Part shown: one piece after another, positions 6,626 to 33,523 of the stretch | Layout of the letters: each line of letters opens with the position of its first letter | How positions within the stretch are numbered: position 1 is the stretch's first letter | From: a virus | Strand: one strand, 5' to 3' | DNA: 37,477 bases | Virus record (IMG/VR): IMGVR_UViG_3300046167_000468 | Span: 1 to 37,477 of that record | Translations under genes and position numbers: made by a program | Notes under the pieces: generated by a model | Databases searched by the model: none | Told to the model about the DNA's origin: nothing | The model's input: only the letters and a program-made list of their open reading frames with translations

Positions 6626-6626
6626 A

Positions 6627-9177: not shown

Positions 9178-9184
9178 GGATACT

Positions 9185-11109: not shown

Positions 11110-13308
11110 ATGGCAATTAACCCACAAAGACTTGAAGATGAGTACCAGTTTTGGGCTACAACTGACGGGTTTGGAAGAAAAGTACAAGACGCAGGTGGCG
11201 ATGGAGGACCAAGACGAGGAGGCAAAGCTAAGTATTCATTGTCACAAGTTTTTGACGACAGTGGCGAAACTCTTACTGAAACAAATATAGATGAGGACGG
11301 TTCTGAAACTAAAGTAGTTCAAAAAACCCCATCAAGTTTGTTAGATAATGAAAGTTATGACACGCCAATATTAGGTAATGATGAAGTTACGTTTCCATCT
11401 ATTGCTACTCCGCCAGAGGAAGATGATAATTTTGTATACGGTAGCGGTGGTTCATCTAGTGGTAGATGGGGTGGTCCTGCACGAGCTGGATTTATGGGAC
11501 CTACTGCAACTAGACCTTATGGTCCTCTTCCTAATGGAAGGTATTTAACAGAAGATGAGTATCTTGGTGCTGACCAAGCGTCTCGATGGCTTAGTCGTCC
11601 ATCAACTGAAAGTATTGAGTCTGATGTATTTGGAACTGGTATAGATGTAGAGCAGTCTGGTTCTGATATTTTAAACGATCAAGGAACTTTAGCAATTACT
11701 GACGAAGATAGAGCTAACGCACAGTCGTCTGTAATTGAAAGTATAAACAACCAAAGGATGATGGAGTTATACAACTCACGTCCTGATTTATATGAAAAGG
11801 TTGTTGAAGGCGAATTAGATATGCCAGTAATTGAAGACCCGCATAAAGATAAAGATTATACTACATCTGGTTTTGATGGTTCTTCTTTGCATTCTGATTC
11901 AGTACCGGGTTCTTTCATATCAGAAACATTTGACAGGTATCGCAATGAAGATGGTGTAATTGTAGACAGTCCTATAAGGTCTGATGTTTTTGATGAAGAC
12001 AATCCTTTGTTTACTACACTACATCCTGAAGCAGCTAGAGAAGTTACTGAAGAAAAAATTCAAGAAGAAGAAAAAGAGTTAGAAAAAAACTTTGATGATT
12101 TGCCATGGGCTGGCGATAAGGGTATAGATTTAACAGCAGTTGTACAAGAAATTAAAGACACAGACCCAAAAGCAATTGAAGTGCTTAATGAGTTTGCATC
12201 ATGGGCAGACACAGTTACAGATGAAGTAGCAATTAAAGAAGCTGAGAATTATTTACTTAGCCTTAAGAACTCTCCATCAGTAGATAGTAGATTTAGAAAA
12301 GCTATGGCGATTGGCATGATTGCTATGTTATTTGGTGATGACTTTACTACAGCAATGAACACAGGTTTCGGTGTGGTTGCTGATGATTACACAGCAGAAG
12401 CTGAAGCTGCAAAGACAGAAGCTGAAGCAGCAGCAGAGTTAGCTAAAACTATTGCTAAAGAAGGTAGGGCAAATGCTGAGAATGACCGAAGAAAAATGAG
12501 AGACTTTACGTTAGAAATGGCAAAGACACGGGCTGAATTAGGAGTCAAAGCAGCTGAAGACCTCGAAGCAGAAATAAAAGCTAGAGCTGGGAACAATCAA
12601 GATTATATAAGTAAAGAAGCTTCTCATTACGAAAGCATTCTGACTGATGATCAAAAGAAAACGCTTGGTGTTTTTAATTTTGGTGCACAATATGATCGTG
12701 CTTTACAATTTGTTAAGAAAGCTCAACCAGATGTTGTTTGGGATTTAAAAAATAACAACGATCAAAGAGTTGCGTTTGATACACAGTTTCAAAAATGGTT
12801 ATCAGATAAATTAAATGGTAATAATTTTGGACAAGGTGTTCCAGCTTTTGCAAATTATATGCAAGATGCGTTTATTAAAACACAGCTTGAAGGTGAAAGT
12901 ATTTTAAACATGAAAGATACTAATCCAAGTTTGTATGATTTACAACAAATGGGTATTGATACTGACAAGATTGATTTTGGTGCAGGTATGGAAGCAACCA
13001 ATGCAGCTTACACAAAGATTGAAGATTATTCTACAGGTTTTAATGAGCGAGGTACATTAGCTTTAATGGCTAAAGATTATTATGATTGGCAAAAATCTGA
13101 CCCAGACGCACATAAAGATATGGTTAGGCGAGCCAATGAACAAGGTATTGGTGGTTTTATTTGGTATGTTACTAGACATGTAGAACCTACAGATACAATA
13201 GGCACAAAGTATGACCCATTAGCTGTAGGAAAAGATAACGAATGGAGGTCAGATTTTGCTATTCAGTATTTACGCAAAGAAGGTATTATTGTAACACCAA
13301 CAAAATAG
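11110..13308 (+). CDS. Internal virion (ejection) protein, gp15-like in size and place
   Basis: A 732-residue protein, close to the size of T7 gp15 (747). Residues 1-330 are acidic and low in predicted structure. About 425-500 is an Ala/Glu-rich coiled coil (AEAEAAKTEAEAAAELAKTI). The remainder is helical with aromatic residues (DYYDWQKSDPDAHKD). It lies between the small core proteins and the 1,366-residue ejection protein, matching the T7 14-15-16 order. The assignment is by position and size. An AGGAG-type site precedes the start. Confidence 0.55.
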   Translation: MAINPQRLEDEYQFWATTDGFGRKVQDAGGDGGPRRGGKAKYSLSQVFDDSGETLTETNIDEDGSETKVVQKTPSSLLDNESYDTPILGNDEVTFPSIATPPEEDDNFVYGSGGSSSGRWGGPARAGFMGPTATRPYGPLPNGRYLTEDEYLGADQASRWLSRPSTESIESDVFGTGIDVEQSGSDILNDQGTLAITDEDRANAQSSVIESINNQRMMELYNSRPDLYEKVVEGELDMPVIEDPHKDKDYTTSGFDGSSLHSDSVPGSFISETFDRYRNEDGVIVDSPIRSDVFDEDNPLFTTLHPEAAREVTEEKIQEEEKELEKNFDDLPWAGDKGIDLTAVVQEIKDTDPKAIEVLNEFASWADTVTDEVAIKEAENYLLSLKNSPSVDSRFRKAMAIGMIAMLFGDDFTTAMNTGFGVVADDYTAEAEAAKTEAEAAAELAKTIAKEGRANAENDRRKMRDFTLEMAKTRAELGVKAAEDLEAEIKARAGNNQDYISKEASHYESILTDDQKKTLGVFNFGAQYDRALQFVKKAQPDVVWDLKNNNDQRVAFDTQFQKWLSDKLNGNNFGQGVPAFANYMQDAFIKTQLEGESILNMKDTNPSLYDLQQMGIDTDKIDFGAGMEATNAAYTKIEDYSTGFNERGTLALMAKDYYDWQKSDPDAHKDMVRRANEQGIGGFIWYVTRHVEPTDTIGTKYDPLAVGKDNEWRSDFAIQYLRKEGIIVTPTK

Positions 13309-13317
13309 GAGTCTACA

Positions 13318-16300
13318 ATGGCTGAAGAAAAAACTTACATGCAAATGCTACAAGAAAAAATGCCAGTGGTATTTGATCTTGATGCAGATACTGTAAGAGA
13401 TTCTGCTGGAGATATAAGGTATGACAATCTTAATGCTCCTGAAGTTGATCATATGAAAAAGGATGGCTTTGCTCCCGGAGATTGGGGTGGTGAGTTTTAT
13501 ACTAAACTTTATGCTGACCTTGCGAATGAAACTGGTTACACTGGTACATATCGCACTGGCGAGAAAGGATATTATGGTCGTGACTTAGGTGGCAGACAAG
13601 ACGAGTACGGTGAGTCTTTTTCTAATAAGCTTTATTATGAAGGTTTAGCTAGACCTAAAGATGAAGAGACACAAGAGCTTGCTGACATGGGGGTGTTTGC
13701 TAGAGCTTTTAGAGCTGAAGTACAAGGTGAGCAAGAAGATGTTTGGCAAAAAGCCAGAGACAAACAAACTACATACATGAATGAAACCATGGGTGGTTTT
13801 AAAGCACTTGCTACTGATGAGGCAGAACTAGCACAATACAATGCGTTTTTTGGTGAGAGTTATAGTCCTTTTTATCAGCATGATGTACAGTACAGACATG
13901 AAGATAGAGACTTAGACAACATTGCTAACAGCAACTTTAGAACAGGTTGGGCAGTTGGTTGGGGTTCTATTAAACAATCAGCAACAGAAGCTGTGTCTAT
14001 GTTAGGCGACATGTTAGGCAATCAAGATTTATATGATTGGGGTGCAATACGTTCAAGAGAGGCTGACTATGAGAACTCTAAGCGACCTATTTTTAGTAAT
14101 GATATAACAGATGTTACTGATGCTAAGAGTTTTGGAAAGTGGGTTGCTGGTATTTCTGGAGTTGCATTGCCATACATGCTTGGACTTATAGGTACTAGAG
14201 CAGTAGGCGGTGTTGTAGCTGCAACTTCTCCTATACTTGGACCGGGTGCTTTTGGTGTTGGTATGACAATGGCTTTTGCTCCAGCAGTATGGGTGTATGC
14301 TGGTGAAGCTTACGGCAATATGCAAGGAGGCATGGATCAAAAGAATGCTGGTCTTGCTTTATCTGCTGGCGTTGTTATGGCAGCATTAGATATGTTAGGT
14401 CTTAAAGGTATTATGGGCGCATCAACAGCACTTAGACAAGACGGTATTAAGATTATTGCTAAAGAGTACGCTAAGAAAGAAGGTATCTCAGAAGAAGCAG
14501 CCACAAAATTAGTGACAGACCAGATGGGAAATCTTAAAGCTTTAGCTCTTAAAGATATAGCAGTTATGTCAGAGATGCAACTGAACAAATCTTTATTAGC
14601 TAAATCTGTTGGTAAGAGAACTGCAAAAGGTATGTCTATTGAAGGCGGTACAGAATTTTTACAAGAGTCTACGGGTTATTTAGCTGGACACTTTGGAACA
14701 GACAGTAGTATCAGACCTGACTTTGATTTTGACGAGTGGCAACGCATTGCAATAAACGCAACAGCAGGAGGTTTTGTTCTGGGTGGAGGTATTGCTGGAA
14801 CAACAACTACATACGGTGAGATAGCAGGGTTCAATAGATTAAAAAGAGATGTTAGTCCTGTTGAAAAAAGTAAAAACTGGATTGGCGGTAAATCTTTAGA
14901 AAGAGCAGATGCTATGTTAGGCACTAAAAGTGATGAACAAGTTTCAGTTATTTTAGATTCAGATGGAAATCCTATTATCAAAGAAGAAGCAGACCCTGAT
15001 GCACCAGAGGTTTATAGCTTTGAGGGAGATAACAGAGATGTTTTAAAAGAGTTTGAACAAGATTATAATACTGGTCATCAACAAGATTTGTCAACTGGAA
15101 GGGGTGGCGAAAAAACTTTGTGGCAAAATGTTAAAGAATTTCCTGCAAGATTTACTAAGAAGGTTGGTTCTTTTTGGGAATCAAGAGCCTTAAAAGCTAT
15201 TGACAAGTATGCTAAGAATCCTGAAAGAGCTAAAGAGTTGTTAGCTATTATACTTACACAGTATGGTATGAGCAATTCAACTTGGATGCAGGGACTTGAT
15301 CTTGGCAATACAAAAAGATTATTGCAACAAAAGTTATTGCATGATGTTGCTCAGTTTAAAGCAGATTTAAATACTTTACTGGGTGTAGGTGTTGGTGGCA
15401 AAACAGATGTAGAAGCTACCAAAATATTTATGGATTATCTTCAAGCAAAACGAGAAGGTAAGTCAACAAATCCAGAGTACAATCAGATAGCTAGCCAATT
15501 AGATGCAATGGTTGAGAGAATTGGTGGTCAGATTGAAGGCAGCAATAAAGGTCTTACAGATAATATACTTACTGAAATTAATAAAGTATTAGGCGGTACG
15601 GCAGAGGTTAAAAGAAAACCTTTTTATTTTCAAGATAGTGCAAAGCTAAAGTTATCTGAAGTTGTTAAAGACAAAGATGGCTTTATAGAAAAGCTTACTA
15701 ATTCTGATTGGTCACAAACAGAAGCAGAAGAGTTCTATGAGTTTTTAGAAAGTGGTCCTATGCATTATGATAAGTCTACACTTAGAGAGCTTGGATTTTT
15801 AAACTATCCAGCACGTTCGGTCAAACAATCTAAAGATCAGTTATATAAAATATTTGGAGAAGATTCTAAGTTTTTAGAAAACGATCCATTCCAAAGACTA
15901 AGAGAGAATATACAAGAGCAAGTTAACTATGCGGTTGATAATAGAATGCTTGGTCAAAAGGGAATGCGATATAAAAAGTTGATGTTAATGTTGAAAGATG
16001 AAATGGGAGAAGGTTGGGATCCAAGAATGCTTACACATTTTACTGATAGTATTGCTGCATCACGTGGTGACTACAGAAGAATGGATAGCAAGAAAGCGGA
16101 AAGAATGATTGGACATATTACTTTCTTTAATACTTTTTCTCATTTAGATTTGTCAGCTCTAGCTTCTCTGCCAGAGGCAGCACTTGTTTTACTGGGTGCG
16201 ACAAAAGATAAAAAGCTTATGGAGCTTTTTCAAATGGGTGTTAATGACTTTGCTAGAAAGTATGTTACAGAAGGCAAGAATGGTTACTCTTATATTAATC

Positions 16301-17418
16301 CATCAGTTGGTTTAACAAGAGAGCAGTACACCAGGAATCTGGCAGATTTCTACAGGTATGGTTATGGCACATCTACTCACGGTGCTATTGGTCAAGTAGG
16401 TATTGATGAAGGTGTTTATAAGGCATCAAAGATTAAAGAGTTTGCAATGAGCACATTCTTTAGAGCTAACCTTCTTAAAATATATACAGACACTACAAGG
16501 GTTGCACGTTTAGCATTAGCTAATGATGCTATTTTTGGTGACTTAGAAATAGTTACAATGTTTCCACCGGGACATCACAATAGAAATACAGGTTTATTTC
16601 ATGATGCTTTCGAAAGATTAAGAGATTTGAACATTGACCCAGATGCTTTAGCTAGAAGATACAAACCTTTAGTTGATGCTGCAAGAATGACTTTAAATGA
16701 AGGTCATGATACGCAAACGCTTTACGATAGAATACTAGAGATGGACCCGTCATTTATAGAAGACATGGACATTGCTAGAATGACTTGGGTTGATAATGCT
16801 ATTGCTCATCCAGATGCAATGAACAGACCTTTGTTCTATTCTAATCCATACTATCGTTTGTTTACGCAGTATAATGGTTTTATGTCTGTGTTTACAGCTT
16901 CTATTCTTCCAAAGATTTGGAAAAGAATAAAGTCACAAGACCCTACAGCAAAGTATTCTACAGTTGCTATTGCTGCGACTATGATTGTTGCAGGGTTTTT
17001 AAGTCAAGCTATGAAAGACGAATGGAGATATGGTGGAAGACCGGGATGGCTTTCGGAGAAAGGTTTCTTACAAAGAGGAGTTGCTTCATCAGGATTACTT
17101 GGAACACCTGAGAAACTATTGTCAGCTATTAGTCCTATATATGATGACAGCAAGAAGCCTTGGGAGTCTTCAATGGATTACGGAGCACGCAAAGGTGGTC
17201 ATGCAATCAGAGAGTTTCTTGGTCCAACATATGCACATGGTGAGCAGTTAGCTAAGATATTTATGTCACAGATAGATGGTGATTTAGATAGAAGAAACAT
17301 GTATCTTTCAAAAGAAATACCTTTCTTAGGTAAAAATAAAAACTGGAAAGACTACAATTTAGGAAGAGGAGATATAAATATAGATGAAGCTCTTAAAAAA
17401 ACAGTACCATTTTTATAA
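13318..17418 (+). CDS. Large ejection protein, gp16-like in size, with N-terminal SNase-like domain
   Basis: A 1,366-residue protein, close to T7 gp16 (1,318). Residues about 15-113 look like a staphylococcal-nuclease fold. DLDADTV (20-26) matches the DGDT loop, R34 the first catalytic Arg, NAPE (39-42) the D-x-P-E region with Asn for Asp, YGRDL with R88 the second Arg, and GESFSNKLYYEGLARP the terminal helix. Residues about 275-365 are hydrophobic and Gly/Ala-rich, able to enter a membrane. The long helical remainder ends in LGKNKNWKDY and a C-terminal VPFL. In T7 the N-terminus is a transglycosylase; here a nuclease-like domain takes that place. Activity is unproven. Start context: TAGGAG. 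Confidence 0.65.
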   Translation: MAEEKTYMQMLQEKMPVVFDLDADTVRDSAGDIRYDNLNAPEVDHMKKDGFAPGDWGGEFYTKLYADLANETGYTGTYRTGEKGYYGRDLGGRQDEYGESFSNKLYYEGLARPKDEETQELADMGVFARAFRAEVQGEQEDVWQKARDKQTTYMNETMGGFKALATDEAELAQYNAFFGESYSPFYQHDVQYRHEDRDLDNIANSNFRTGWAVGWGSIKQSATEAVSMLGDMLGNQDLYDWGAIRSREADYENSKRPIFSNDITDVTDAKSFGKWVAGISGVALPYMLGLIGTRAVGGVVAATSPILGPGAFGVGMTMAFAPAVWVYAGEAYGNMQGGMDQKNAGLALSAGVVMAALDMLGLKGIMGASTALRQDGIKIIAKEYAKKEGISEEAATKLVTDQMGNLKALALKDIAVMSEMQLNKSLLAKSVGKRTAKGMSIEGGTEFLQESTGYLAGHFGTDSSIRPDFDFDEWQRIAINATAGGFVLGGGIAGTTTTYGEIAGFNRLKRDVSPVEKSKNWIGGKSLERADAMLGTKSDEQVSVILDSDGNPIIKEEADPDAPEVYSFEGDNRDVLKEFEQDYNTGHQQDLSTGRGGEKTLWQNVKEFPARFTKKVGSFWESRALKAIDKYAKNPERAKELLAIILTQYGMSNSTWMQGLDLGNTKRLLQQKLLHDVAQFKADLNTLLGVGVGGKTDVEATKIFMDYLQAKREGKSTNPEYNQIASQLDAMVERIGGQIEGSNKGLTDNILTEINKVLGGTAEVKRKPFYFQDSAKLKLSEVVKDKDGFIEKLTNSDWSQTEAEEFYEFLESGPMHYDKSTLRELGFLNYPARSVKQSKDQLYKIFGEDSKFLENDPFQRLRENIQEQVNYAVDNRMLGQKGMRYKKLMLMLKDEMGEGWDPRMLTHFTDSIAASRGDYRRMDSKKAERMIGHITFFNTFSHLDLSALASLPEAALVLLGATKDKKLMELFQMGVNDFARKYVTEGKNGYSYINPSVGLTREQYTRNLADFYRYGYGTSTHGAIGQVGIDEGVYKASKIKEFAMSTFFRANLLKIYTDTTRVARLALANDAIFGDLEIVTMFPPGHHNRNTGLFHDAFERLRDLNIDPDALARRYKPLVDAARMTLNEGHDTQTLYDRILEMDPSFIEDMDIARMTWVDNAIAHPDAMNRPLFYSNPYYRLFTQYNGFMSVFTASILPKIWKRIKSQDPTAKYSTVAIAATMIVAGFLSQAMKDEWRYGGRPGWLSEKGFLQRGVASSGLLGTPEKLLSAISPIYDDSKKPWESSMDYGARKGGHAIREFLGPTYAHGEQLAKIFMSQIDGDLDRRNMYLSKEIPFLGKNKNWKDYNLGRGDINIDEALKKTVPFL

Positions 17419-17433: not shown

Positions 17434-18765
17434 ATGGCTCTAAATCTACAAACCACCAAGCAAATGGGTGGAAGAAGCCTTGTTGATGCATCAAACAATC
17501 CCCTTCTAAAAAGTATTTTAGAGGGGACAGCTGCATTACAAACTGATCCTGTTACGCAAAAACCTAAAAGCAAAAAAGAAACAGGGCAGTCAGTTGCAGA
17601 TACAAGAGCTCAGTTAGATCAAAACTATCAAGCTGTTGATGCTGCATACGATTCAAGTGTAGCTGCTTTAAATACTATGGCTAGCACTGGTAGAAGCACG
17701 CCATCAGTATATACACAAAGCCAAGCTAGAGCGCAAGGCGATTCTACATTGGCTAAATCTGATGCTGCAATTATTGGTCAAGCACAAACTTATGCTGACG
17801 CTATGTTAGCTAACCCTAGGTTTGATAACTCTAAGATGGGAGAAGACCCTAACTTAGACTATGATGAAGAGGCACGATTGTTGGAGGCGTTTGCTAATCA
17901 AGCAGGCGTTGAGCCTGAGCAAGTTGCATCTGACCCTAGATTGTATGAAGCTTTTGGTAGGTTTTTAGGTTTGTCTACTGGCACTATGAGTAATGATAAG
18001 TATTACGCATATGATGTTAACGGTAATAATCTAAAAGATGATAGTAACAACAATTATAAAACATGGACACCATGGGTGCAACCTAAGTTTGTTACACAGG
18101 TTTCAGGTGTAGGTACAAAAATAAAAGACAATCCTATTGCTCAAAAGTTTAGAGGCAACAAGGATGCTTATGTAAAAAAAGAAATGGCACAAGGTGTCTC
18201 AGAAGCTGATGCTATACAAGCTTGGAATCAAATGGGTGATTTAGATACCACTCAGTCATTAATAGGACAAACAGGATTTCCAAGAGAGGATGCAACAGTT
18301 TTGCGTGCATCAGAGATGGCAGCTAAGACACAAAAAACATTAAGTTCTTTTGTTCGTAGTGTACATGCTGCTTCAGTTAATCGTTCTCCTATGGCAGCTT
18401 CAAGATTTGCTGAGAAAATAACAGGGAATAGATACGATGAGTTTAAAGGTGAATCTATCAACGATATGATTAATCTTTTTATACATACGCATGCTGCTTT
18501 AGAAGAGCAATCCGAGACAGCAGCTCAAGCTTACTCAGATATTATGATGTTAGCTGTAATGGACCATGCTTTGCAAAATGTATATAGATATGAAAATAAA
18601 AAGTCAGACCCTAATGCTGAAGAAGCTCCTGCTTCAATAGAAAATGAATCTACTGAGGCTGCTATTAAAAGATATGACTCGACATTGATGTCAGGTGCTG
18701 CTGATCAAAAACAAATAGGTAGTACTATCTTAAACAATATGGGCTTTCGGAAAGACTACTGCTGA
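17434..18765 (+). CDS. Virion RNA polymerase, N-terminal fragment (frameshifted)
   Basis: The first 443 residues of a gene that really extends to 21623. Residues 1-130 are Gln/Ser/Ala-rich (SVADTRAQLDQNYQ), and the rest is helical. The frame ends at a one-base break at 18745-18747: reading TTT as TT turns MGFRKDYC-stop into MGFGKTTAEQQEA and on into the next frame. The break is inside a helical text that continues smoothly, so this is one protein and not two. No catalytic motif is in this part; in N4 and T7 the corresponding region recognises the promoter. Start context: TATAGGAGA. Confidence 0.7.
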   Translation: MALNLQTTKQMGGRSLVDASNNPLLKSILEGTAALQTDPVTQKPKSKKETGQSVADTRAQLDQNYQAVDAAYDSSVAALNTMASTGRSTPSVYTQSQARAQGDSTLAKSDAAIIGQAQTYADAMLANPRFDNSKMGEDPNLDYDEEARLLEAFANQAGVEPEQVASDPRLYEAFGRFLGLSTGTMSNDKYYAYDVNGNNLKDDSNNNYKTWTPWVQPKFVTQVSGVGTKIKDNPIAQKFRGNKDAYVKKEMAQGVSEADAIQAWNQMGDLDTTQSLIGQTGFPREDATVLRASEMAAKTQKTLSSFVRSVHAASVNRSPMAASRFAEKITGNRYDEFKGESINDMINLFIHTHAALEEQSETAAQAYSDIMMLAVMDHALQNVYRYENKKSDPNAEEAPASIENESTEAAIKRYDSTLMSGAADQKQIGSTILNNMGFRKDYC

Positions 18766-20341
18766 ACAACAAGAAGCTATGGGTGCTATGGCAATGGACA
18801 TAGTGTTTAAAACTTTTGATAAGAATCAAACAAAGAAAGACCAGTTGTTTAGAAAAGTAGAAGTTAAAGCTATGAAAAGCGGAGTACCTATTACATTAAT
18901 AGGGCATACTTTTACTAAAGAAGGTCTTGCATTAGCTCAAGATATGAAAGGTTTGTTTGAAGTTGTTATGCCTAAGTCGCAGAGAAATGTTAGGTATGGT
19001 ACTTTACTTACAGATAAGACTGCTATTGAAAAGCTGATTGGTGTACGTGTTGATGATTACGAATACACAATTCCTTTCGGTGACACAACTATCGCAGCCA
19101 TGCATAAACAGCAAGCTGATAATACTCCTGTGCGTATTCATCGTGAGTCTCAACAGTTTTGGGATAAGGTTTATACTGAGTATCAAAACGAGTTGCAGCG
19201 TGAAGCAATGACACAAGGTGCAGAGCGTTCTACAATTCTAGATGATTTAGATGGTGCAAACTTTTTTAATTCAAAAGGTAATGGCAATGGACAAAAGGGT
19301 AGCTTCCAAAGTAGACCCGGCTTTGTCTATGTTACTGACAGACAAGGAAGGTTTTATCATAAAGATTCACCTCATTTAATCTATGAGGGTGCAACAGAAA
19401 AAACTTATACTAAGAATGATGGTAGAAGTATAGAGGATGCTGCACAACAAATGGACTTTAGTGACAAGGTTAAAGACCAGCAATTTATAAATACAATTGA
19501 GTTTGCTACAACAAACTTAGATAAAGTTTTTTATTACACTTATAAGTATGGAAAAAACTGGAGGCTTAACGTAGATCAAACTGTTGGTAATTACCAGCAT
19601 AATAAATTTGCAAGGTCTTTGATTGCTGCTGGTGTACCTGCTACTTATAATCTTAAGAACAAGAAAGATGTTATTCAAATCAAAGCTGGTATTATGAAAC
19701 GCTATGGTATGGATATGAAGAACCCTATTGAAGCTGCTTTAGAATATGACGCAGCTATCAACAGGTGGACACAGTTAGATGCTAGCCAAGATTTAAAAGG
19801 CATACTTAGAGAAGCTGGAAAAGAAGAAGGCTTTGCTTCGGTTGCTGCAATACTTGAAGGCATTAGGCTGAAGAAACATATGGACGGAAACAATCCTACA
19901 TATACTTCTACTTTCTTTACAGAGATTGATGGCAAGACTAATGGTCTTGCTCATGCAGCTGCACAATCAGGTGACTTGGTTTCTGGAAGTCGTGCTCTTA
20001 TATTTGGTGAAGAAGATTACGCTACATGGAATAAATATTATGATGAGTTTGAAAAGATTCAGAATGATCCAGAGAAAATACGTGAGCTTGAAAACAAATA
20101 TGATTTAGAACCGGGTGCGTTAAGCACTTATCTTGATGCTTACAATAGTGTTAACAATTCTTTATTAAAAGATTTTGCTAAGATTAGAGCGGGAGTTACT
20201 GAGTCTGGTGATTTGGTTACATTTCCGGGCATGTTGTTAGAAGGTACAAGTGAAAAGTTTAAAGTTATAATGCAAGATGCACAAGACAATGGTGGGACTA
20301 GCAAAGTTTACTATGGCTTTAGATATGTTTGGTCAGAGTGA
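18746..20341 (+). CDS. Virion RNA polymerase, middle fragment with motif A (frameshifted)
   Basis: This fragment continues the gene begun at 17434. Motif A of single-subunit RNA polymerases is at 19928 (EIDGKTNGLAHAAAQSGD), matching T7 DGSCSGIQHFSA with the catalytic Asp. Upstream lies YTYKYGKNWRLNVDQTVG at about 19535-19590, which fits the T/DxxGR region, although the Arg is replaced by Lys. A second DRQGRFY string occurs at about 19340. The frame ends after motif A. Reading GGG at 20294-20296 as GG continues it as NGGLAKFTMALDMFGQSE, which is the approach to motif B. Confidence 0.75.
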   Translation, partial: FGKTTAEQQEAMGAMAMDIVFKTFDKNQTKKDQLFRKVEVKAMKSGVPITLIGHTFTKEGLALAQDMKGLFEVVMPKSQRNVRYGTLLTDKTAIEKLIGVRVDDYEYTIPFGDTTIAAMHKQQADNTPVRIHRESQQFWDKVYTEYQNELQREAMTQGAERSTILDDLDGANFFNSKGNGNGQKGSFQSRPGFVYVTDRQGRFYHKDSPHLIYEGATEKTYTKNDGRSIEDAAQQMDFSDKVKDQQFINTIEFATTNLDKVFYYTYKYGKNWRLNVDQTVGNYQHNKFARSLIAAGVPATYNLKNKKDVIQIKAGIMKRYGMDMKNPIEAALEYDAAINRWTQLDASQDLKGILREAGKEEGFASVAAILEGIRLKKHMDGNNPTYTSTFFTEIDGKTNGLAHAAAQSGDLVSGSRALIFGEEDYATWNKYYDEFEKIQNDPEKIRELENKYDLEPGALSTYLDAYNSVNNSLLKDFAKIRAGVTESGDLVTFPGMLLEGTSEKFKVIMQDAQDNGGTSKVYYGFRYVWSE

Positions 20342-21623
20342 ATTTGGCAGGGCTTTTACTAAAAAACCTGTGATGATTTTTGCTTATGGTGCTGGTGATG
20401 CAAGACATATTGAGGAAGTTAGGTCTTACATTGACGGAATAATGAGAGAAAATGGTGCTGGTTTTCAGCAAAAATTAACAGACGCAGGCATTGATGTTGA
20501 TAGAGATTTTATTGAACCTCTTGGTGTAATGATGTCGCAAGCTGTTAATACTAACTTTAATCAGATTAAAACATTTGCAAATGCTTTGTCTGCAATGGGT
20601 GCTGAAGCAGTCAATCAAGGTTTTGAATTGTTTATACCAACAATGGACGGTCATTTAATTCCAATAGGTGACATGGAATATTGGATAAGCAAAGACCCCG
20701 GAGACAAGAGACAGCAGAAATGGATTTTGCCAGACGGAGAAACAGCGTCTACTGTTCAAGTACAACACATGAATAAGAGGTGGGATTCTAGAGCTGGCAG
20801 AGATTTACCAGACCTCTCGAATGTCGGCAACAGCATAAGAATATTCAAAGCTGCAACACAGATGGCAGTAATGTTAACTCATGCCAATGACAATACGAAC
20901 ATGCAAAGAGCTATTTATAATATGCATGAAGCTAAGCTTGGCAAAAGAAAGGCTGACAAGAATGATGCAATGGATGAATCATCATTGCCTTATGGTAATA
21001 CATCTTTACATATCTTTGATGGTTTATTAGTTACGCCTAAAGAAGCTGAAGAGTATGCTGAAATGTTAAACAATGTGTTTAGAGATATGAATACTGATCC
21101 TCACAAGAGTCATATGCATGCTTTATACACAGCGTTATCTTTTGAGTTAGATTCAAATGGTCAAAAGATTAAAGATGATAACTATATGAATCATCCTCTT
21201 CTTAAAAATGGTCAGAAAGATATGTCTGACAAACAATGGAATAGGCTTGTAAATCATTATCGTTATAGACGTAGATTAAAACCAGAAGCTAGAGAAGAAA
21301 CTTTGCAAGATGATGGACCTTCTTCTTGGGACCCAAAATATAACAGGGCAGAAACTTCTCAGGGTAAAGTAATTCGTGAAGCGCAGGCTTTCGATTGGAA
21401 GACACCAGACAAGACCGTCAAAGGTAAAAAGGTTAGAGGTACACAATGGTACTTTAATAAATACTTTAAAGGTGAAGGTGCTTTCTATGATGCTAAGCAA
21501 CAGTTTGCAAGAGACAAACAACATTACAAACAGTTCTTTTATTCTACTGATACTCTTGATAATCAGATTAAAAACTATAAAGGCAATGCTAATTTAGATG
21601 CCATGGTTTGGAAATCTAATTAA
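20295..21623 (+). CDS. Virion RNA polymerase, C-terminal fragment with motifs B and C
   Basis: This is the end of the polymerase. Motif B is GRAFTKKPVMIFAYGAG, with Arg at 20349, Lys at 20361 and Tyr at 20385, the same spacing as T7 R627-K631-Y639. Farther on, LTHANDNTN resembles the T7 VHSQDGSH element. Motif C is LHIFDGLLVTP, with the catalytic Asp at 21018-21020, followed by a helix ending near NVFRDM as in T7. All catalytic residues are present, so an active enzyme is expected once the frames are joined. It is the last gene of the late arm and ends just before the terminator. No host-type promoter is seen here. Confidence 0.8.
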   Translation, partial: GLAKFTMALDMFGQSEFGRAFTKKPVMIFAYGAGDARHIEEVRSYIDGIMRENGAGFQQKLTDAGIDVDRDFIEPLGVMMSQAVNTNFNQIKTFANALSAMGAEAVNQGFELFIPTMDGHLIPIGDMEYWISKDPGDKRQQKWILPDGETASTVQVQHMNKRWDSRAGRDLPDLSNVGNSIRIFKAATQMAVMLTHANDNTNMQRAIYNMHEAKLGKRKADKNDAMDESSLPYGNTSLHIFDGLLVTPKEAEEYAEMLNNVFRDMNTDPHKSHMHALYTALSFELDSNGQKIKDDNYMNHPLLKNGQKDMSDKQWNRLVNHYRYRRRLKPEAREETLQDDGPSSWDPKYNRAETSQGKVIREAQAFDWKTPDKTVKGKKVRGTQWYFNKYFKGEGAFYDAKQQFARDKQHYKQFFYSTDTLDNQIKNYKGNANLDAMVWKSN

Positions 21624-21624: not shown

Positions 21625-21677
21625 AAAAAAACCCCCAACAGAATCCTTAATGGAATCTGTTGGGGGTTTTCTTTTTT
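21625..21677. terminator. Bidirectional intrinsic terminator between convergent arms
   Basis: A strong hairpin with a 15-base-pair main stem: CCCCCAACAGA on the left pairs with TCTGTTGGGGG on the right, extended by A/T pairs. After one mismatch there are three more pairs around the loop TTAAT. An A tract lies on the left and a T tract on the right, so it can end transcription from both directions. It sits between the stop of the + arm polymerase and the stop of the last - arm gene. Confidence 0.93.
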
Positions 21678-21966
21678 AATATCCTCTAGCTTTTTGTGCT
21701 TTACTTAATGATCGCCAAGCGTCTTTACGTCCTTTGTCAGCTACTTCTTTTGCAAACATCATTGCTTCTTCTTCTGTTCTTCCTTGTTTAATTGCTTTTC
21801 TATGTTCTGCTTCTATGTTTTTCTTGTAAGTATCTTCTATTAGCCACTTGTTTATTCCTTTAGTATAAGCCAACTCTTGTGGCACACCAAAATTATCTAC
21901 ATATTCCTGGTCTGTTATACCTTCCATAGCTAGAATGTTGTAACTTCTTTTATTTTCCTCTGCCAT
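21676..21966 (-). CDS. Hypothetical protein, last gene of the early arm
   Basis: A 96-residue, highly charged helical protein (EAEHRKAIKQGRTEEEAMMF) with no membrane segment or motif I recognise. It ends inside the terminator tract. It is two bases from the previous gene and is probably transcribed with the replication genes. Confidence 0.55.
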   Translation of the reverse strand: MAEENKRSYNILAMEGITDQEYVDNFGVPQELAYTKGINKWLIEDTYKKNIEAEHRKAIKQGRTEEEAMMFAKEVADKGRKDAWRSLSKAQKARGY

Positions 21967-21967
21967 G

Positions 21968-22153
21968 TCAATGTCCTGCTGTTAATATGGTTGAAGCTTC
22001 TTTAGTATCTTCGTCATCTTCTAAGTAGTCTATCAATGATTTAAGAAAGTTTCCTTCTTCATTCATAGGGTATACCATCTCGATCACTTCTGTTCTCTTT
22101 GCTTTCTCACTGTCATCTATTATAGTAAAGGTTGCTTTAACCATGGTTTGCAT
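21968..22153 (-). CDS. Hypothetical protein
   Basis: A 61-residue acidic protein: a beta-type N-terminal part (VKATFTIIDDSEKAKRTEVI) and a Glu/Asp-rich C-terminal part. A second Met (residue 4) is a possible start. It overlaps the previous gene by 16 bases. No function is recognised. Confidence 0.5.
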   Translation of the reverse strand: MQTMVKATFTIIDDSEKAKRTEVIEMVYPMNEEGNFLKSLIDYLEDDEDTKEASTILTAGH

Positions 22154-22331
22154 GTTGATCTCCTGATACCATGTTATATCCTAAGATAGCCATGCTTTTA
22201 ATTAAACTTCTTAGAGCATCTTCTGCTGCAGATTTGATTTCATCTGATACAGTGTCTTGCTCTAGTACGTGTATACATGTGTTAGTCATGTCGACTAACG
22301 AGTATGCTTTGTTATGCTGTTCTTCTGTCAT
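22137..22331 (-). CDS. Hypothetical protein
   Basis: A 64-residue, helical protein (SAAEDALRSLIKSMAILGYN) with an AAAGGAAAT ribosome site just upstream. It has no motif I recognise. It overlaps its downstream neighbour. Confidence 0.5.
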   Translation of the reverse strand: MTEEQHNKAYSLVDMTNTCIHVLEQDTVSDEIKSAAEDALRSLIKSMAILGYNMVSGDQHANHG

Positions 22332-22343
22332 TATAATTTCCTT

Positions 22344-22478
22344 TTATTTTCTCCAGTCACTTCTCCAAAGTGGTCTGGACTTTTTTTTTAAATCCTTGTA
22401 AAGTTCGGCAGTCTTATCCATTTGAACAAGACCACCGGGTTCTTTTTTTTTTCTCTCTGGCTTTACGCCCCCAGCCAT
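22344..22478 (-). CDS. Small basic protein, overlapping gene
   Basis: A 44-residue protein that starts MAGGVKPERKKK, continues with a helix (QMDKTAELYKDLKKKSRP) and ends RSDWRK. It starts inside the 38-residue membrane gene and overlaps it by 16 bases. The frame contains runs of ten A and nine A, so an error there would change it. A Lys-rich, Trp-ending peptide of this size could be a nucleic-acid-binding or membrane-associated accessory protein. No family is recognised. Confidence 0.45.
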   Translation of the reverse strand: MAGGVKPERKKKEPGGLVQMDKTAELYKDLKKKSRPLWRSDWRK

Positions 22479-22579
22479 CGTGCTAGTACTGCTACTACTA
22501 CAATGCCTACTAAGATAGCGTACGTTTTATGTTCGCTAACTTTGTTCTTAAGAGTTTTCGGATCAATTCTCCAAGTCAT
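22463..22579 (-). CDS. Small single-pass membrane protein
   Basis: A 38-residue protein with one membrane helix (YAILVGIVVVAVLARWLGA) after a charged N-terminal part (MTWRIDPKTLKNKVSEHK). AAGGAGAC lies just upstream of its ATG. The charge order suggests the N-terminus stays in the cytoplasm. It lies beside another small membrane protein. Confidence 0.55.
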   Translation of the reverse strand: MTWRIDPKTLKNKVSEHKTYAILVGIVVVAVLARWLGA

Positions 22580-22587
22580 ATGTCTCC

Positions 22588-22830
22588 TTACTTAGATAAC
22601 TCATTCGTTATATCTTTATCAAGTAACTTCCAGATTATTCCAGCAGCAATTAAACCTGCTAATCCAGCGTTACCTAATGTCCATACTATATTTAGTATAG
22701 AACCAATCACATCTCCAGTCAAGAAGGCAACCTTCTGACCAAAGATAACTTGCAATACAATTGACAAGCTGATTAGTTTGATGCCTACATCTATTGCAGC
22801 ATCAGCACCGTTTTTAATTTTCTCTAACAT
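22588..22830 (-). CDS. Two-helix membrane protein
   Basis: An 80-residue protein with two hydrophobic segments (about 18-38 and 42-68; GLAGLIAAGIIWKLL) and a charged C-terminal tail. It could be a pinholin- or antiholin-like protein or a host-membrane effector, but there is no specific signature. It starts two bases after the Endo VII-like gene. Confidence 0.5.
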   Translation of the reverse strand: MLEKIKNGADAAIDVGIKLISLSIVLQVIFGQKVAFLTGDVIGSILNIVWTLGNAGLAGLIAAGIIWKLLDKDITNELSK

Positions 22831-22831
22831 T

Positions 22832-23233
22832 TTAACTCCTTTCGTTATTGTGTTTTTTCATGTAGTTCATAAGACCTTGAGCTACTTCTGGGCTGCCTTT
22901 CAAGTATCCTTCTGCTGAGTTGCACCAGTGACATAACAATCCTCTGACTGTTCCTGTCTCATGGCAATGGTCAACAAAAAGTTTATGATCGTCATCCTTT
23001 CCATACTCGCAAAACTCATTAGCACATGTACCACCTTGTTGCTTGAGCATGTTATCGTACTCTTCAACTGTTAGGTTGTACTCAGACTTGAGATGATACT
23101 CATGTCTAATGACTGCTTTACAAGGTTTGCATCGTCTATCTTTTCCAAGATGTGAGCTACTCTTTATATGGAATGCGCTCTCATCTTTTACTGTCTCACA
23201 AATTGTGCATCTGATTTTGACTACGTTAGACAT
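22832..23233 (-). CDS. Endonuclease VII-like HNH nuclease
   Basis: A 133-residue protein. The N-terminal part has Cys pairs CTIC (9-12) and CKPC. The core reads LFVDHCHETGTVRGLLCHWC, the beta-beta-alpha-metal fold of recombination endonuclease VII with its histidines. T4 gp49 resolves branched DNA before packaging. Many small relatives are instead stand-alone (homing-type) nucleases, so both roles are possible. RusA is also encoded in this arm. The gene starts just after the ribonucleotide reductase stop. Confidence 0.8.
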   Translation of the reverse strand: MSNVVKIRCTICETVKDESAFHIKSSSHLGKDRRCKPCKAVIRHEYHLKSEYNLTVEEYDNMLKQQGGTCANEFCEYGKDDDHKLFVDHCHETGTVRGLLCHWCNSAEGYLKGSPEVAQGLMNYMKKHNNERS

Positions 23234-23234
23234 G

Positions 23235-25022: not shown

Positions 25023-25197
25023 TTCTTCTAGTTTTTGTGTCTAGTTTGTAGTCTGTGTTTTCTTCAAGGTGCTCTGCCATAAAGTCAAAGTACCTAGCTA
25101 CAGTTTCTTCCCACGTTTCTCTTCTATTCTTTTCTGGTAGCCATCTTGCATACCTACTTAATGCTATAAAGTTTTGATAATCATTAGGTAACTTCAT
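25000..25197 (-). CDS. nrdJ: Class II ribonucleotide reductase, N-terminal fragment
   Basis: The true start of the reductase. MKLPNDYQNFIALSRYARWL and RRETWEETVARYFDFM match the usual N-terminus of phage class II enzymes. An AAAGGAGG site lies eight or nine bases upstream. After KTRRK the frame ends by a single extra A, so this fragment should be merged with 23235-25022, giving about 653 residues. Confidence 0.85.
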   Translation of the reverse strand: MKLPNDYQNFIALSRYARWLPEKNRRETWEETVARYFDFMAEHLEENTDYKLDTKTRRKIRTCSA

Positions 25198-25199
25198 TA

Positions 25200-25376
25200 T
25201 TAATAATCCTCCTTTAATGAAAACTTTTCAGTAAGATCGGGATGTGTGTCTTCTATTACCCATACTTTTTTGTGTCCTTTATTTTTAAGTTCTTTTTGTA
25301 AATCTTTGGCTTGCTCTAGACCGAGATATCCATTGTGAACAAACTTGTTGCCAACACTTACTATATATAATTTCAT
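25200..25376 (-). CDS. Small hypothetical protein
   Basis: A 58-residue protein starting MKLYIVSVGNKFVHNGYLGL and ending KFSLKEDY. Its final codons contain the AAAGGAGG ribosome site of the reductase, so the two are tightly coupled. A short beta-alpha-beta arrangement is likely. No family is recognised. Confidence 0.5.
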   Translation of the reverse strand: MKLYIVSVGNKFVHNGYLGLEQAKDLQKELKNKGHKKVWVIEDTHPDLTEKFSLKEDY

Positions 25377-25382
25377 TATTAC

Positions 25383-25586
25383 TTATCCTCCTTTAACTTT
25401 TATTTGTATTTTGTCTTCACCGTTTTTACTTTTTACAACTCTATATTGTAGTTCGCCAGTGTGATGCATACATATTGCATCAGACATACCTTCATTGTAT
25501 TGGTTTTCACCATGTTTTCTAAATGAATAGTATATGCCACCAGCTAGTATAGCCCATAGAATTATGTATAAATCTTCAATTATCAT
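25383..25586 (-). CDS. Small membrane-anchored protein
   Basis: A 67-residue protein with an N-terminal membrane helix (LYIILWAILAGGIYYSF, about 6-22) and a soluble tail ending in beta-type residues (KIQIKVKGG). It starts within the last codons of the RusA gene. No function is recognised. Confidence 0.5.
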   Translation of the reverse strand: MIIEDLYIILWAILAGGIYYSFRKHGENQYNEGMSDAICMHHTGELQYRVVKSKNGEDKIQIKVKGG

Positions 25587-25983
25587 TAGTAATTTCCTTC
25601 AATATTATTTTAATACTACCTGTTTCTGCCCATATTTTTTTGGACTTTTGCACTACGATTTGCTTGTCATCATGAAAATATACAGTGTTTAAGGAGTCTA
25701 GGATTGCTTTCTCGTAATTATCAAGATCAGCATTGTTGTCACAGAATTGTCCATTCTTGGACGTTTTCTTTTTATTAGACCATGACTTAGCCATTGGAAT
25801 AAAGAACGTCATATCAGCAGATATGAGCTCTTCAAGCCATACTTTGTCTTTATTGATCAGTAATTTCTCCATGTCTTTCTTAAATTGTTTGTATTTTTTA
25901 CCATAATATGTACCCCACCTCGTGACTCTAGGTCTTGAGGCAGGTACAGGATTAATGTCAAACAGCAAATCTATTTGATTCAT
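25576..25983 (-). CDS. rusA: RusA-type Holliday junction resolvase
   Basis: A 135-residue protein. The N-terminal PVPASRPRVTRWGTYYGKKY and the later DLDNYEKAILDSLNTVYFHD, with the conserved Asp residues that bind metal, are the signature of RusA. It cuts four-way DNA junctions during phage recombination and replication. Its start overlaps the stop of the YqaJ exonuclease gene, which fits a shared recombination module. Confidence 0.9.
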   Translation of the reverse strand: MNQIDLLFDINPVPASRPRVTRWGTYYGKKYKQFKKDMEKLLINKDKVWLEELISADMTFFIPMAKSWSNKKKTSKNGQFCDNNADLDNYEKAILDSLNTVYFHDDKQIVVQKSKKIWAETGSIKIILKEITNDN

Positions 25984-27780: not shown

Positions 27781-27789
27781 GTTTCCTCC

Positions 27790-29443: not shown

Positions 29444-29505
29444 TACTCCTCCATTTTAAGTGAGCAGTTTTAATGTCATGCTCAGGACACCTCACTAAGG
29501 ATTAT

Positions 29506-30037: not shown

Positions 30038-30051
30038 TACTAGTTATAAAT

Positions 30052-30210
30052 GGTGAGGGTTTCTCACCGCCTTAAGTACTCATACTAGATGAGTGACTTG
30101 TTTCTTTAAGGACAACGCTTGCGTTGTCCCAAATAAAAGTGCCAGACATTTCTCATAGAGGTGTGGTAGTATGAGAGTGTCTGGCTTCATTTTGTGTTGT
30201 CAACTACCAC
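30052..30210 (-). other. Structured intergenic region with four inverted repeats
   Basis: The 225-base gap between the SSB and DUF3310 genes has no good open frame. It contains four clear inverted repeats: GGTGAG/CTCACC (30052-30068), ACTCAT/ATGAGT (30078-30094), a nine-pair GGACAACGC/GCGTTGTCC with a two-base loop (30110-30129), and a two-step stem GCCAGACA/TGTCTGGC enclosing TCTCATA/TATGAGA (30141-30185). The 12-base loop of the last holds GTGGTAG, which is complementary to CTACCAC at 30204-30210, so a pseudoknot is possible. It could be a replication origin, a regulatory RNA or a control site. Confidence 0.6.
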
Positions 30211-31045: not shown

Positions 31046-33490
31046 TCAGCAGAAGAAGAAGTCCGACCCGTATATATCTTCTAGTATTAATTTACCTACT
31101 TCAGGTGTCTCTTCACTAAAGTTTTCTTCATCCCAGATAATTTCTTGACGCATAACTGCAAAGATATCTTTTGCATACATTTTTACGAATTCACTTTTAG
31201 TAGCGTTGATCAATGATTCTACATCAGCAGCATGAACACTAAAGCTATCATGTATTGCACCAAAACTTTTTAAATTTAATGTATTTATTACTAAAGACAT
31301 GTGACTTGCATCATAAGAGTGAACCCAATTAGCTCCGATTGCAGATAAATGTTCAGCTAGTGTTGGTATGTCTGTTGTTTCTAAATACACATGACTTATT
31401 TGTTTCTTTTGCAACGAACCTTTATAAACTTTTTTGCGTGCTACCCATTTTTGTGTAAGCACAGGGAACCCACTAGGCGTATTCCATGATATGTCCTTCA
31501 TGTTCATATGATTTATTTTATGATCGACTAATGCTTGCAAATACTTTTTGATTTCTACTGGTCCATGACAAATAGAATCATAAGCTTGTACTAAATCTTT
31601 ACCTAACGTTTTGGAGTCAGACCTTGTTATGTTATAAGTTGATGTGATTCCGGCATCATAACAATCTTGATAAATTATTTCACCTATTTTTCTTGCACCT
31701 GCATCATATGCACGTGTCATAGAGCCACGTTTACTGATGCCTTTACGTACTAATTTCATTGGTATGTGTTGCATTTTGTCACCAATCTCTGTGTTTTTAT
31801 TTAGTTCTAATATTTTTTTACCCATGACCAAGTAAAAATCTTTAGGCATTTTCATTGGCATCAATCCTACTAACTCACCAGCTTTTTCATCTAAAGACAT
31901 TGCTGCTAAATGTTGCGTACCGTTGTTAACTCCGTCAATTGAGATTGGCATTGATGAATAGTATGGTTCACCACTTAATGCGCTGCCGATTATTCCGCCA
32001 ATTTCAAAACATAATGATAAAAATACCCATGGTTTTTCAGCAGACATCCAATATTTTTGTGTGCTTACAGGGTTTTCTGCTACGTTTAATATCATGTCAA
32101 CATGTTCTATTGTCCAATTGTGTTTGTCCAATACACCCATTTTGTCTACTGAGATGTCTACTAAGCCGTCATTTTCAAGAGATGTTTTATAATCTAACTC
32201 TAACCATTCTTGGTGTGGTAACTCAGCTATTTTGTACGTTTGATTAAATGATGTTGCAGCGTGAATAAATGTATATTCAGCACCTTTTTGATCTATTTCT
32301 TTTTCTTCATGAAATAAAAAATGTGCACGTGCTAAATCATTTGATTGATAACTGAAGTAGGGATCACGATTGTATATACGTCCACGGTAATCAAGATACA
32401 TTGATTGATAAAACTCGTATCCTAACCAGCCGGGATGATGTTGAGTGCCGTTTATTGTATCTAAAATCGCCATATTTCTTGTGGCTTGTGACTGAATGCG
32501 AAGGCAGTATTGTTTGTCCGTCCAACGCCTATTTTCAAGGTTGTATCTATCTTGAATTATTTTTAATTTATATTCTGTTTCTTTTATTTTGTTTAAGTTT
32601 TTTAATTTACTAATTCTGTTAGTGAGTTTTTCTATTTCTTTTTCTAATTTTGGTACAGCGCTTGAATTACCTAGATGTGGTTCAAACAAATCTTCGTCAC
32701 GATACAGCAGCATTCCATTTAAATGTTTGTTAATGTTATCTCGTTTTATATCAATTGTATCAAAGGTTATAACTAGACCTTCACTGTTAATTAATTCTAT
32801 TTCTGTGTTCACAAGTTGAGGGCGTAATGCCAAGCTGACTGCTGCAACCTGTGGATTTATTTTCCATCGTACTTTTTCTAATTTGTTTATGGATTCAAAG
32901 AATGCTTTATCATTGTACGAATGATCAATTTCTACATTAGATTTTACGAGTCTTTCAGTTACACCTAATGTTTTACGTTGCCCTTTGATCCATGGTTTGT
33001 ATGGGTACTTTGAAAGACCTATACGATCTTGCGGGTCAATAGATATTTTTGTAAAATTTTCACCAATTTCTAAAACATAGGGATTATAGTTGATTTTTTG
33101 CTTGATTGTGTTTTGGTATACGTCTTCTACTCTAAAGAATGGCTCACGAGTGAGAATAAGGTATCTATTTTCAATTAATTGGTCTAAGATGAAGTCACCT
33201 AGCATTAAACAAATAGAGTCCTTAGAATCGAATCCTCCTGCGTTTAGTATATTTAATGCGGTTGCACCAATATTTTTAGAAGTATTCGTTAATTTGATTA
33301 CACCTTCGTTTTGTTTAAACTTTTGAACCAAATAAATGAATACTGAATTTAGTATTCTGACAGTTCTAAAGTCGTTGTACACACATTGTGCTTCACGGAA
33401 TATTTGTGCAGCACCTGAAGCATTGTTGTTTCTATTTGAGATTCTATATTCTAGAATATCAGCTTCTGTATTTATTAGATTTTGTTCCAT
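31046..33490 (-). CDS. T7-type single-subunit RNA polymerase
   Basis: A protein of 814 residues from the ATG at 33490 (AGGAGG just upstream); a GTG at 33517 would add nine residues. Motifs: DYRGRIY (about 367), motif A SIDGVNNGTQH with D519, motif B KRGSMTRAYDAG with K587 and Y595, HSYDASH (about 724), and motif C IHDSF with D748. The C-terminus SDFFFC resembles the T7 SDFAFA foot. It has a Lys/Glu-rich coiled-coil insertion (about 280-320). It would transcribe middle and late phage genes. A terminator-like hairpin and promoter-like region lie upstream. Confidence 0.97.
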   Translation of the reverse strand: MEQNLINTEADILEYRISNRNNNASGAAQIFREAQCVYNDFRTVRILNSVFIYLVQKFKQNEGVIKLTNTSKNIGATALNILNAGGFDSKDSICLMLGDFILDQLIENRYLILTREPFFRVEDVYQNTIKQKINYNPYVLEIGENFTKISIDPQDRIGLSKYPYKPWIKGQRKTLGVTERLVKSNVEIDHSYNDKAFFESINKLEKVRWKINPQVAAVSLALRPQLVNTEIELINSEGLVITFDTIDIKRDNINKHLNGMLLYRDEDLFEPHLGNSSAVPKLEKEIEKLTNRISKLKNLNKIKETEYKLKIIQDRYNLENRRWTDKQYCLRIQSQATRNMAILDTINGTQHHPGWLGYEFYQSMYLDYRGRIYNRDPYFSYQSNDLARAHFLFHEEKEIDQKGAEYTFIHAATSFNQTYKIAELPHQEWLELDYKTSLENDGLVDISVDKMGVLDKHNWTIEHVDMILNVAENPVSTQKYWMSAEKPWVFLSLCFEIGGIIGSALSGEPYYSSMPISIDGVNNGTQHLAAMSLDEKAGELVGLMPMKMPKDFYLVMGKKILELNKNTEIGDKMQHIPMKLVRKGISKRGSMTRAYDAGARKIGEIIYQDCYDAGITSTYNITRSDSKTLGKDLVQAYDSICHGPVEIKKYLQALVDHKINHMNMKDISWNTPSGFPVLTQKWVARKKVYKGSLQKKQISHVYLETTDIPTLAEHLSAIGANWVHSYDASHMSLVINTLNLKSFGAIHDSFSVHAADVESLINATKSEFVKMYAKDIFAVMRQEIIWDEENFSEETPEVGKLILEDIYGSDFFFC

Positions 33491-33523
33491 ACACCTCCTA
33501 TAGTTATTTTTTACCACTATACT

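Follow-up and report, generated by a model that had tools for sequence, protein, structure and literature searches.

What is encoded at the end of the late arm of a phage genome fragment, where one gene appears to be spread over three reading frames? The question is raised by positions 17434 to 21623 of IMG/VR virus record IMGVR_UViG_3300046167_000468 (37,477 bases, classed as linear, which often denotes a fragment; the whole stretch is called the window here), which a preliminary description, made from the sequence alone, had read as a single-subunit RNA polymerase (RNAP) of the virion type. Giant virion RNAPs (vRNAPs) are well known in Schitoviridae (PMC12633501, PMC4496689). The promoters from which the packaged enzyme of phage N4 transcribes early genes are described as hairpins with a loop of 3 nt and a sheared pair between the template bases G and A, and the early products in turn lead on to RNAPII, the next polymerase (PMC4496689); the large C-terminal domain of the N4 enzyme is reported to damp transcription (PMC12633501). 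Here we report that the gene in the window very probably encodes an N4-type virion polymerase without that large C-terminal domain, which would be packaged and ejected to transcribe the early genes.

Results

The window carries the gene as three open reading frames (ORFs), 17434-18765, 18779-20341 and 20277-21623. These pieces align to successive stretches of one intact 1,395-aa ORF in IMG/VR contig 3300028844_002844 with 92–95% identity per piece, and the three window ORFs together make up a single protein of about 1,395 aa with no cysteine; the preliminary description, which had joined the frames and proposed correcting them with a related genome, was right on this point. IMG/VR scans identified ten relatives in total, all of which have the gene as a single ORF, so that both frame breaks are private to the window assembly (0 of 10 relatives broken). 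Seven relatives are complete (L001, 1,395 aa; L002, 1,380; L009, 1,414; G015, 1,389; G008, 1,401; L086, 1,362; and L083, 1,184), one (G007, 1,410 aa) starts at the contig edge and is missing only a few N-terminal residues, and two (L008, 1,175 aa; L082, 874 aa) are truncated by the contig end. Pairwise identity within seven relatives ranges from 33% to 97%. Because the relatives lack the breaks and other genes of the window contig are also broken, the breaks are best read as assembly errors; programmed frameshifting was rejected because the gene is unbroken in the relatives. The other affected regions, 23235-25007 and 6627-9177, hold genes that are broken or shortened compared to relatives and point to an error-prone assembly: the ribonucleotide reductase (RNR) gene at 23235-25007 encodes 590 aa, as against a 653-aa ORF at the same place in six of six relatives, and ORFs 6627-7730 and 7789-8184 match successive parts of the virion family phrog_3287, for which G008 has one 518-aa ORF.

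Profile searches connect this protein to the packaged polymerases. PHROG 2206, "virion RNA polymerase," was matched by the middle piece (E 1.7e-9) and by the intact relative of 94% identity (E 1.5e-12, residues 682-989). When the middle piece was compared by tblastn to 50,697 phage records at E 0.01, the only matches were ten Vibrio records (seven phages, three of them listed twice), with 27–28% identity over 34% of the query, and in 4 of these 10 records the matched gene is annotated as a virion or virion-encapsulated RNA polymerase. We also built a profile from 12 N4-like vRNAPs (2 of 14 stretches, RHEph16 and D520, were dropped for want of a match to the motif A pattern), with E values calculated at Z = 100,000. 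It found all four relatives tested (L008, 8.3e-12; L001, 5.3e-11; L002, 1.2e-9; L009, 1.3e-5) and the second piece in the window (1.1e-9), as well as the third piece weakly (0.042); among the controls, T7 RNAP scored 9.7 and gp33 of Roseobacter phage CRP-7 scored 470, and a second RNAP encoded in the window (discussed below) was unlisted. Single profile-profile comparisons gave probabilities of 97.3 (local) and 99.0 (global), or 97.7 with seven relatives. In the reverse direction, a profile of four relatives finds the vRNAP of phage pVa5 and misses that of N4.

One scan of genome contigs and a scan with the pYD6-A vRNAP stretch yielded no polymerase relative, searches of the phage collection yielded no full-length one, and tblastn against phages with the third window piece and with the whole G015 homologue gave no match. 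We further searched 18 records, namely 15 of the 18 loci of the second RNAP together with L001, L009, and CRP-7; the polymerase was unmatched in 11, comprising nine contigs of 5–17 kb, in which absence says little, the 22-kb contig G013, and CRP-7.

The residues expected of the enzyme are in place. The positions assigned in the preliminary description are all confirmed: EIDGKTNG at 19922 in motif A, GRAFTKKP at 20346 (R 20349, K 20361) and FAYGAG at 20379 (Y 20385) in motif B, THANDNTN at 20877, and HIFDG at 21009 in motif C (Table 1). THANDNTN is placed like the GDGMMM stretch of the N4 vRNAP, with which it is profile-aligned in L002, and by eye like HSQDGSH of T7 RNAP. Motif C reads FDG or FDA in 10 of 10 relatives and IFDG in N4, whereas T7 RNAP has HD, so the window polymerase is of the N4 style here. 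A joint MAFFT alignment has 24 columns in which eight N4-like vRNAPs do not vary. All ten relatives carry the same residue as these vRNAPs in 18 of the 24 columns (R Q K R, E D G T N G, D Y, and R K P Y G G; the other six vary), as compared to 13 matched by T7 RNAP and 9 by the second RNAP in the window. These are the counts of the MAFFT alignment; hmmalign in local mode lost the flanks and gave 6–18 of 24. One of the eight rows, Ochrobactrum phage ZX86, is N4-like but its record has no Schitoviridae assignment. Taken together, the profile and residue tests (PHROG 2206, the N4-like vRNAP profile, and the 18 of 24 residues) uphold the identification of a single-subunit polymerase of the N4 virion type.

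That an unrelated large structural protein should match these motifs by chance is very improbable. Such an explanation would be in keeping with the four-relative profile missing the N4 vRNAP and with the lack of structural support for the fold, but it is strongly disfavoured by the independent profile matches and by 18 of 24 diagnostic residues occurring in order in ten relatives. A more serious alternative, though still an unlikely one, is that a former vRNAP has lost RNA synthesis and been retained in an ejection or structural role, as the gene lies among virion proteins and conservation is low outside the motifs. However, four long blocks are invariant among sequences of only about 33% identity: motif A, motif B, a YLDAYN block, and a VML-HANDN-NM block in the stretch that precedes motif C. 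All but the YLDAYN block thus coincide with a polymerase motif or with the approach to motif C. Both aspartates, the R, K, and Y of motif B, and the TNG of motif A are kept in 10 of 10 relatives. Such conservation is to be expected of an enzyme under selection for catalysis.

Table 1. Positions of the polymerase gene, its motifs, and other features in the window.
Feature	Positions	Strand	Basis
Virion-type single-subunit RNA polymerase gene (predicted)	17434..21623	+	ORF list, intact relatives, PHROG 2206, N4-like vRNAP profile
NWRLNVDQ, start of conserved R...Q..K..R block; lines up with R-NPQ-K-R block of N4-like vRNAPs	19556..19579	+	Alignment
Motif A, EIDGKTNG; catalytic Asp codon 19928	19922..19945	+	Alignment, position check
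Motif B, GRAFTKKPVMIFAYGAG	20346..20396	+	Alignment, position check
THANDNTN, precedes motif C	20877..20900	+	Profile alignment, by eye
Motif C, HIFDG; catalytic Asp codon 21018; compare KIFDG in N4	21009..21023	+	Position check
732-aa cysteine-free protein at ejection/virion protein position	11110..13308	+	No PHROG family
1,366-aa cysteine-free virion-type protein; G015 counterpart matches CRP-7 gp34	13318..17418	+	PHROG, homology
Terminator-like inverted repeat, then T run, between converging arms	21632..21666	.	Read by eye from sequence, no program
Candidate hairpin promoter ggacaacgCAAGcgttgtcc (coding strand), ~105 nt upstream of SSB-like gene 29506-30024	30110..30129	-	Hairpin scans
Second, T7-like single-subunit RNAP, 823 aa, early/replication arm	31046..33517	-	PF00940 E 1.1e-58, phrog_414 E 3.6e-88, CRP-7 gp30 29% over 99%

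The late arm lies on the plus strand and ends at 21,623, and the early/replication arm lies on the minus strand and converges on it. The polymerase gene closes the late arm right after the 732-aa and 1,366-aa proteins; N4 gp50 is likewise the last late gene and faces genes of the opposite strand. The only good PHROG matches of the 1,366-aa protein are "virion structural protein" families, and the 732-aa protein has none, so the T7 likeness that had been ascribed to the ejection proteins upstream is not borne out. Cysteine is absent from 12,984 residues of the ten relatives and from the window pieces, and also from 14 N4-like vRNAP stretches (29,664 residues), which agrees with published accounts of N4-like vRNAPs as cysteine-free (PMC3915230), an absence explained there by passage through the tail (PMC3915230; PMC10747016). 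Given the cysteine rates over the 30 window genes counted, and with residues treated as independent, 27 cysteines would be expected in the polymerase at the early-arm rate (P ∼2e-12) and 11 at the late-gene rate calculated without the two large genes (P ∼1e-5). As far as sequence can indicate, packaging and ejection would fit both the polymerase's lack of cysteine and its place behind two large virion-type proteins that lack it too. Cysteine is also absent from the two large upstream proteins (11110-17418), T7 gp16 (L015 30595-34551), and CRP-7 gp33 to gp35 (L003 17859-29367).

Membership in the single-subunit superfamily would also allow an ordinary phage RNAP that is synthesized in the cell, left unpackaged, and used in a T7-like role, all the more as packaging is deduced. 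We consider this quite improbable: a T7-like RNAP is already encoded at 31046-33517, the late polymerase has no cysteine whereas that second RNAP has 8 (and T7 RNAP 12), and the catalytic core is closer to the packaged vRNAPs than to T7. The two RNAPs share a contig in G002, G003, G004, G007, G008, and G015. By PHROG, the larger early-arm proteins (21676-37477) further include a primase, helicase, exonuclease, single-stranded DNA-binding protein (SSB), RusA, endonuclease VII, nucleotide kinase, and RNR; no DNA polymerase (DNAP) was named in scans of most of these larger proteins in the window, which is a partial genome.

The window stops short of where its own early arm begins, and relatives were therefore scanned for that region. 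On the presumed template strand, hairpins with a GNA triloop and a stem of at least 8 number four in G003 (0.015 expected) and two in G015 (0.025 expected), with expectations that are optimistic because the loop class was picked after the hairpins had been seen; the other strand of both contigs has no GNA-loop hairpin of such length. In G003, the first early ORF of at least 100 aa (14192-14590 of L065) has two adjacent hairpins upstream of it; a third sits between later ORFs, and the fourth is upstream of the SSB-like gene. A scan of the first 1,300 bases of N4 gave five triloop hairpins, including two of the GNA class just upstream of gp1 and gp2. Tandem hairpins at the early-arm start occupy 14560-14960 of L065 and 8200-8800 of L066, and three in G003 are followed by a GTAGAGA stretch.

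Of 14 copies of the SSB-like gene, 10 have a hairpin with a stem of at least 6 at 95–120 nt upstream (0.29 expected, the copies being related), namely those in the window, L002, L008, L009, L034, L037, L040, L041, L046, and L049. Stem pairs change on both sides with pairing retained, and the L034 hairpin is identical to that of the window. On the template strand the loop is GNA in L008, L009, L037, and L049, CTTG in the window, L002, L034, and L041, and of other types in L040 and L046. The window-type core CGCTTGCG occurs twice in the first part of the G017 early arm (7747 and 8442 of L066), each time as a hairpin. A "hairpin plus TARAGA" arrangement occurs four times in the early arm of G003 (0.47 expected) and once each in those of G017, G015, and the window; because it also occurs in late arms (four in the window and two in G015, with 0.50 and 0.46 expected and stems of 5–6), the argument rests on the longer stems. 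The early-arm hairpins are promoter-like in place and form, and we infer that the virion polymerase may use them.

To place the phage, we used G017, a contig whose second RNAP is 88% identical to that of the window over the 187 residues compared and which runs into the start of the late arm. Its large terminase subunit (TerL) scores best in phrog_2, its portal in phrog_1216 (E 2.9e-85), and its scaffold in phrog_3927; N4 shares the portal family (E 2.8e-271) but has a phrog_38 TerL, and CRP-7 has the phrog_3927 scaffold. The nearest isolate is CRP-7 (MK613349), a phage outside Schitoviridae, which is similar in portal (the best match of the G017 portal, 43% over 93%), RNAP (29% over 99%), scaffold PHROG, and two-arm plan, and its gp34 is homologous to a 1,384-aa protein of G015 (22.5% over 36%). 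Because the scaffold PHROG is shared and the best portal match is to CRP-7, these comparisons indicate that the window's phage group is near CRP-7 and that its portal links it distantly to N4. CRP-7 was put by its describers in a new group of non-N4-like podoviruses, and their account names one RNAP, ORF30 (PMC6918029). The hallmark set given for Schitoviridae consists of DNAP, major capsid protein (MCP), portal, tail protein, TerL, the small terminase subunit (TerS), and vRNAP (PMC11654794). In our material the TerL family differs and no DNAP was named among the window proteins scanned, the genomes being incomplete and the MCP unreached in the contigs read; as far as these incomplete genomes show, the group lies outside Schitoviridae.

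At the place of the polymerase gene, CRP-7 differs in having gp33 (L003 17859-21566), which is annotated as hypothetical, cysteine-free, and unmatched by polymerase profiles, with motif-like stretches only. These are EADARQSNAG or ESDARQSNAG, LYGK, and GGDSTIM...AIHDALITG, at polymerase-like spacing (96 and 205 residues), and they are present in all nine IMG/VR relatives of gp33 (loci L068-L076). Profile searches for a vRNAP in gp33 find nothing, the best local profile alignment falling on the motif C region with E 0.008 and a probability of 4.9. A virion polymerase identity for gp33 may be taken as a lead only.

Discussion

We observed homology of the catalytic core to N4-like vRNAPs, strict conservation of the catalytic residues, a gene unbroken in relatives, a lack of cysteine, a position closing the late arm, co-occurrence with a second RNAP, and conserved hairpins in early arms. 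An N4-type virion polymerase that lacks the large C-terminal domain of N4 very probably accounts for these. From them we infer polymerase activity, packaging, ejection, promoter function of the hairpins, and an order of events as follows. The polymerase would be made late and packaged into the head together with the two large cysteine-free proteins of the preceding genes; at infection it would enter the host, ejected either before the DNA or along with it. There it would transcribe the first, early-arm genes from hairpin promoters, and the T7-like RNAP of the early arm would be responsible for the following stage, in the manner of RNAPII in N4.

Several points weigh against this interpretation. 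The relative P0002 alone gives no PHROG 2206 match, Pfam RNA_pol is matched at best with E 4.9e-4, which is under its cut-off, and phmmer against PDB sequences gave no match. Structure prediction, which had been suggested as a check, was run with AlphaFold2 and gave no usable model: mean predicted local distance difference test (pLDDT) scores were a poor 38.8 for residues 421-1395 of the intact relative (6 rows) and a poor 49.5 for a 651-residue core (12 rows). Foldseek comparison of the core model to the PDB had a non-significant best match (E 2.5); yeast mitochondrial RNAP, second in the list at E 4.9, was likewise non-significant and was not used. Given the poor models and the lack of a significant Foldseek match, the palm-and-fingers fold is unproved. 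The eight vRNAPs of the residue comparison were taken from eleven stretches carrying DGxTN[GA] (L021, L023, and L024 were left out), so that the 24 invariant residues are valid for those eight only; two of the three left-out stretches have no YG[SA]G in the stretch, and part of motif A is invariant by choice because the stretches had been picked for DGxTN[GA]. The cysteine sign is non-exclusive because six small late proteins (5495 to 11100) also lack cysteine. As for the hairpins, in addition to the optimistic expectations noted above, a scan for GNA hairpins with a stem of at least 7 was negative in the early arms of CRP-7, G017, and the window, the window's own template-strand loop is CTTG rather than GNA, and a perfect hairpin is absent from 4 of 14 SSB regions; the hairpins could also serve the second RNAP, replication, or RNA processing.

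Among known systems, the closest is the vRNAP of N4 (gp50) and other Schitoviridae, nearest by tblastn in Vibrio phages of the pVa5 kind. The two share E-x-DGxTNG, R-K-P-YG-G, an FD motif C, the absence of cysteine, a place as last late gene facing the other arm, and, in some relatives, N4-like early-arm hairpins; N4 is also reported to have a further phage RNAP (PMC4496689), as the window has its second. They differ in size, with complete copies in the window's group of 1,184–1,414 aa as compared to 3,344 in pVa5 and 3,500 in N4. Only 162–202 residues follow motif C, as against 1,326 in pVa5 and 1,553 in N4, and there is therefore no room for the autoinhibitory C-terminal domain of N4; the giant form, with about 3,500 aa and large N- and C-terminal domains, is not what is found here. 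T7 RNAP and the 823-aa RNAP of the window share the single-subunit superfamily motifs, but have HD in motif C and other residues around motifs A and B, and contain cysteines.

The preliminary description named N4-like and crAss-like phages as carriers of packaged polymerases of this family and knew of none beside T7-like ejection proteins, and both statements need revision. The crAss-like enzyme, although likewise large and particle-borne, is described as a fusion resembling the bacterial beta and beta' subunits (PMC10136315) and is therefore no precedent for this family; a polymerase of that type was rejected for the window, where single-subunit motifs are present and no beta/beta' match was found in PHROG or Pfam. 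A further vRNAP outside Schitoviridae has been claimed by PSI-BLAST for ORF30 of vB_PunP_Y3, a marine podovirus of the proposed family Poorviridae (PMC11654794), which is reported to have an N4-like DNAP and MCP; we set it beside the window's polymerase by description only, and it is absent from the tblastn matches of the middle piece. Large cysteine-free proteins of StenR_269 and Zobellviridae have been suggested as vRNAPs, as presented in that account without motif evidence (PMC10747016). A mining study reports 287 contigs with an N4 vRNAP as the sole hallmark (PMC10654107), and the present contigs could be among them. The packaged polymerase of N4 is chiefly known from N4-like phages, whose genomes in database records are ∼66–79 kb. 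A search of the open-licence literature found no description of a compact vRNAP form.

A wider picture can be drawn, tentatively and with somewhat less than even confidence, in which a separate lineage around CRP-7 has divided up the N4 strategy. The virion polymerase would stand alone, free of the large C-terminal domain, beside separate ejection proteins and a single-chain second RNAP, the hairpin loops would differ by clade (GNA in some, CTTG in that of the window) and co-vary with the polymerase, and CRP-7 gp33 would be a still more divergent virion polymerase.

The compact N4-type virion polymerase is a real variant of a known enzyme kind in a different phage lineage, and suggests that starting an infection with a packaged polymerase extends beyond the N4 family. 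A natural vRNAP with no room for the C-terminal domain offers a direct test of the purpose of that domain, and the compact form bears on the minimum size of a polymerase that can be packaged and ejected. The differing hairpin loops of related phages provide pairs of enzyme and candidate promoter with which the recognition of hairpin promoters, and its change, may be studied. Lastly, the cysteine-free signature may help to flag ejected proteins among the unnamed large late genes of phages.

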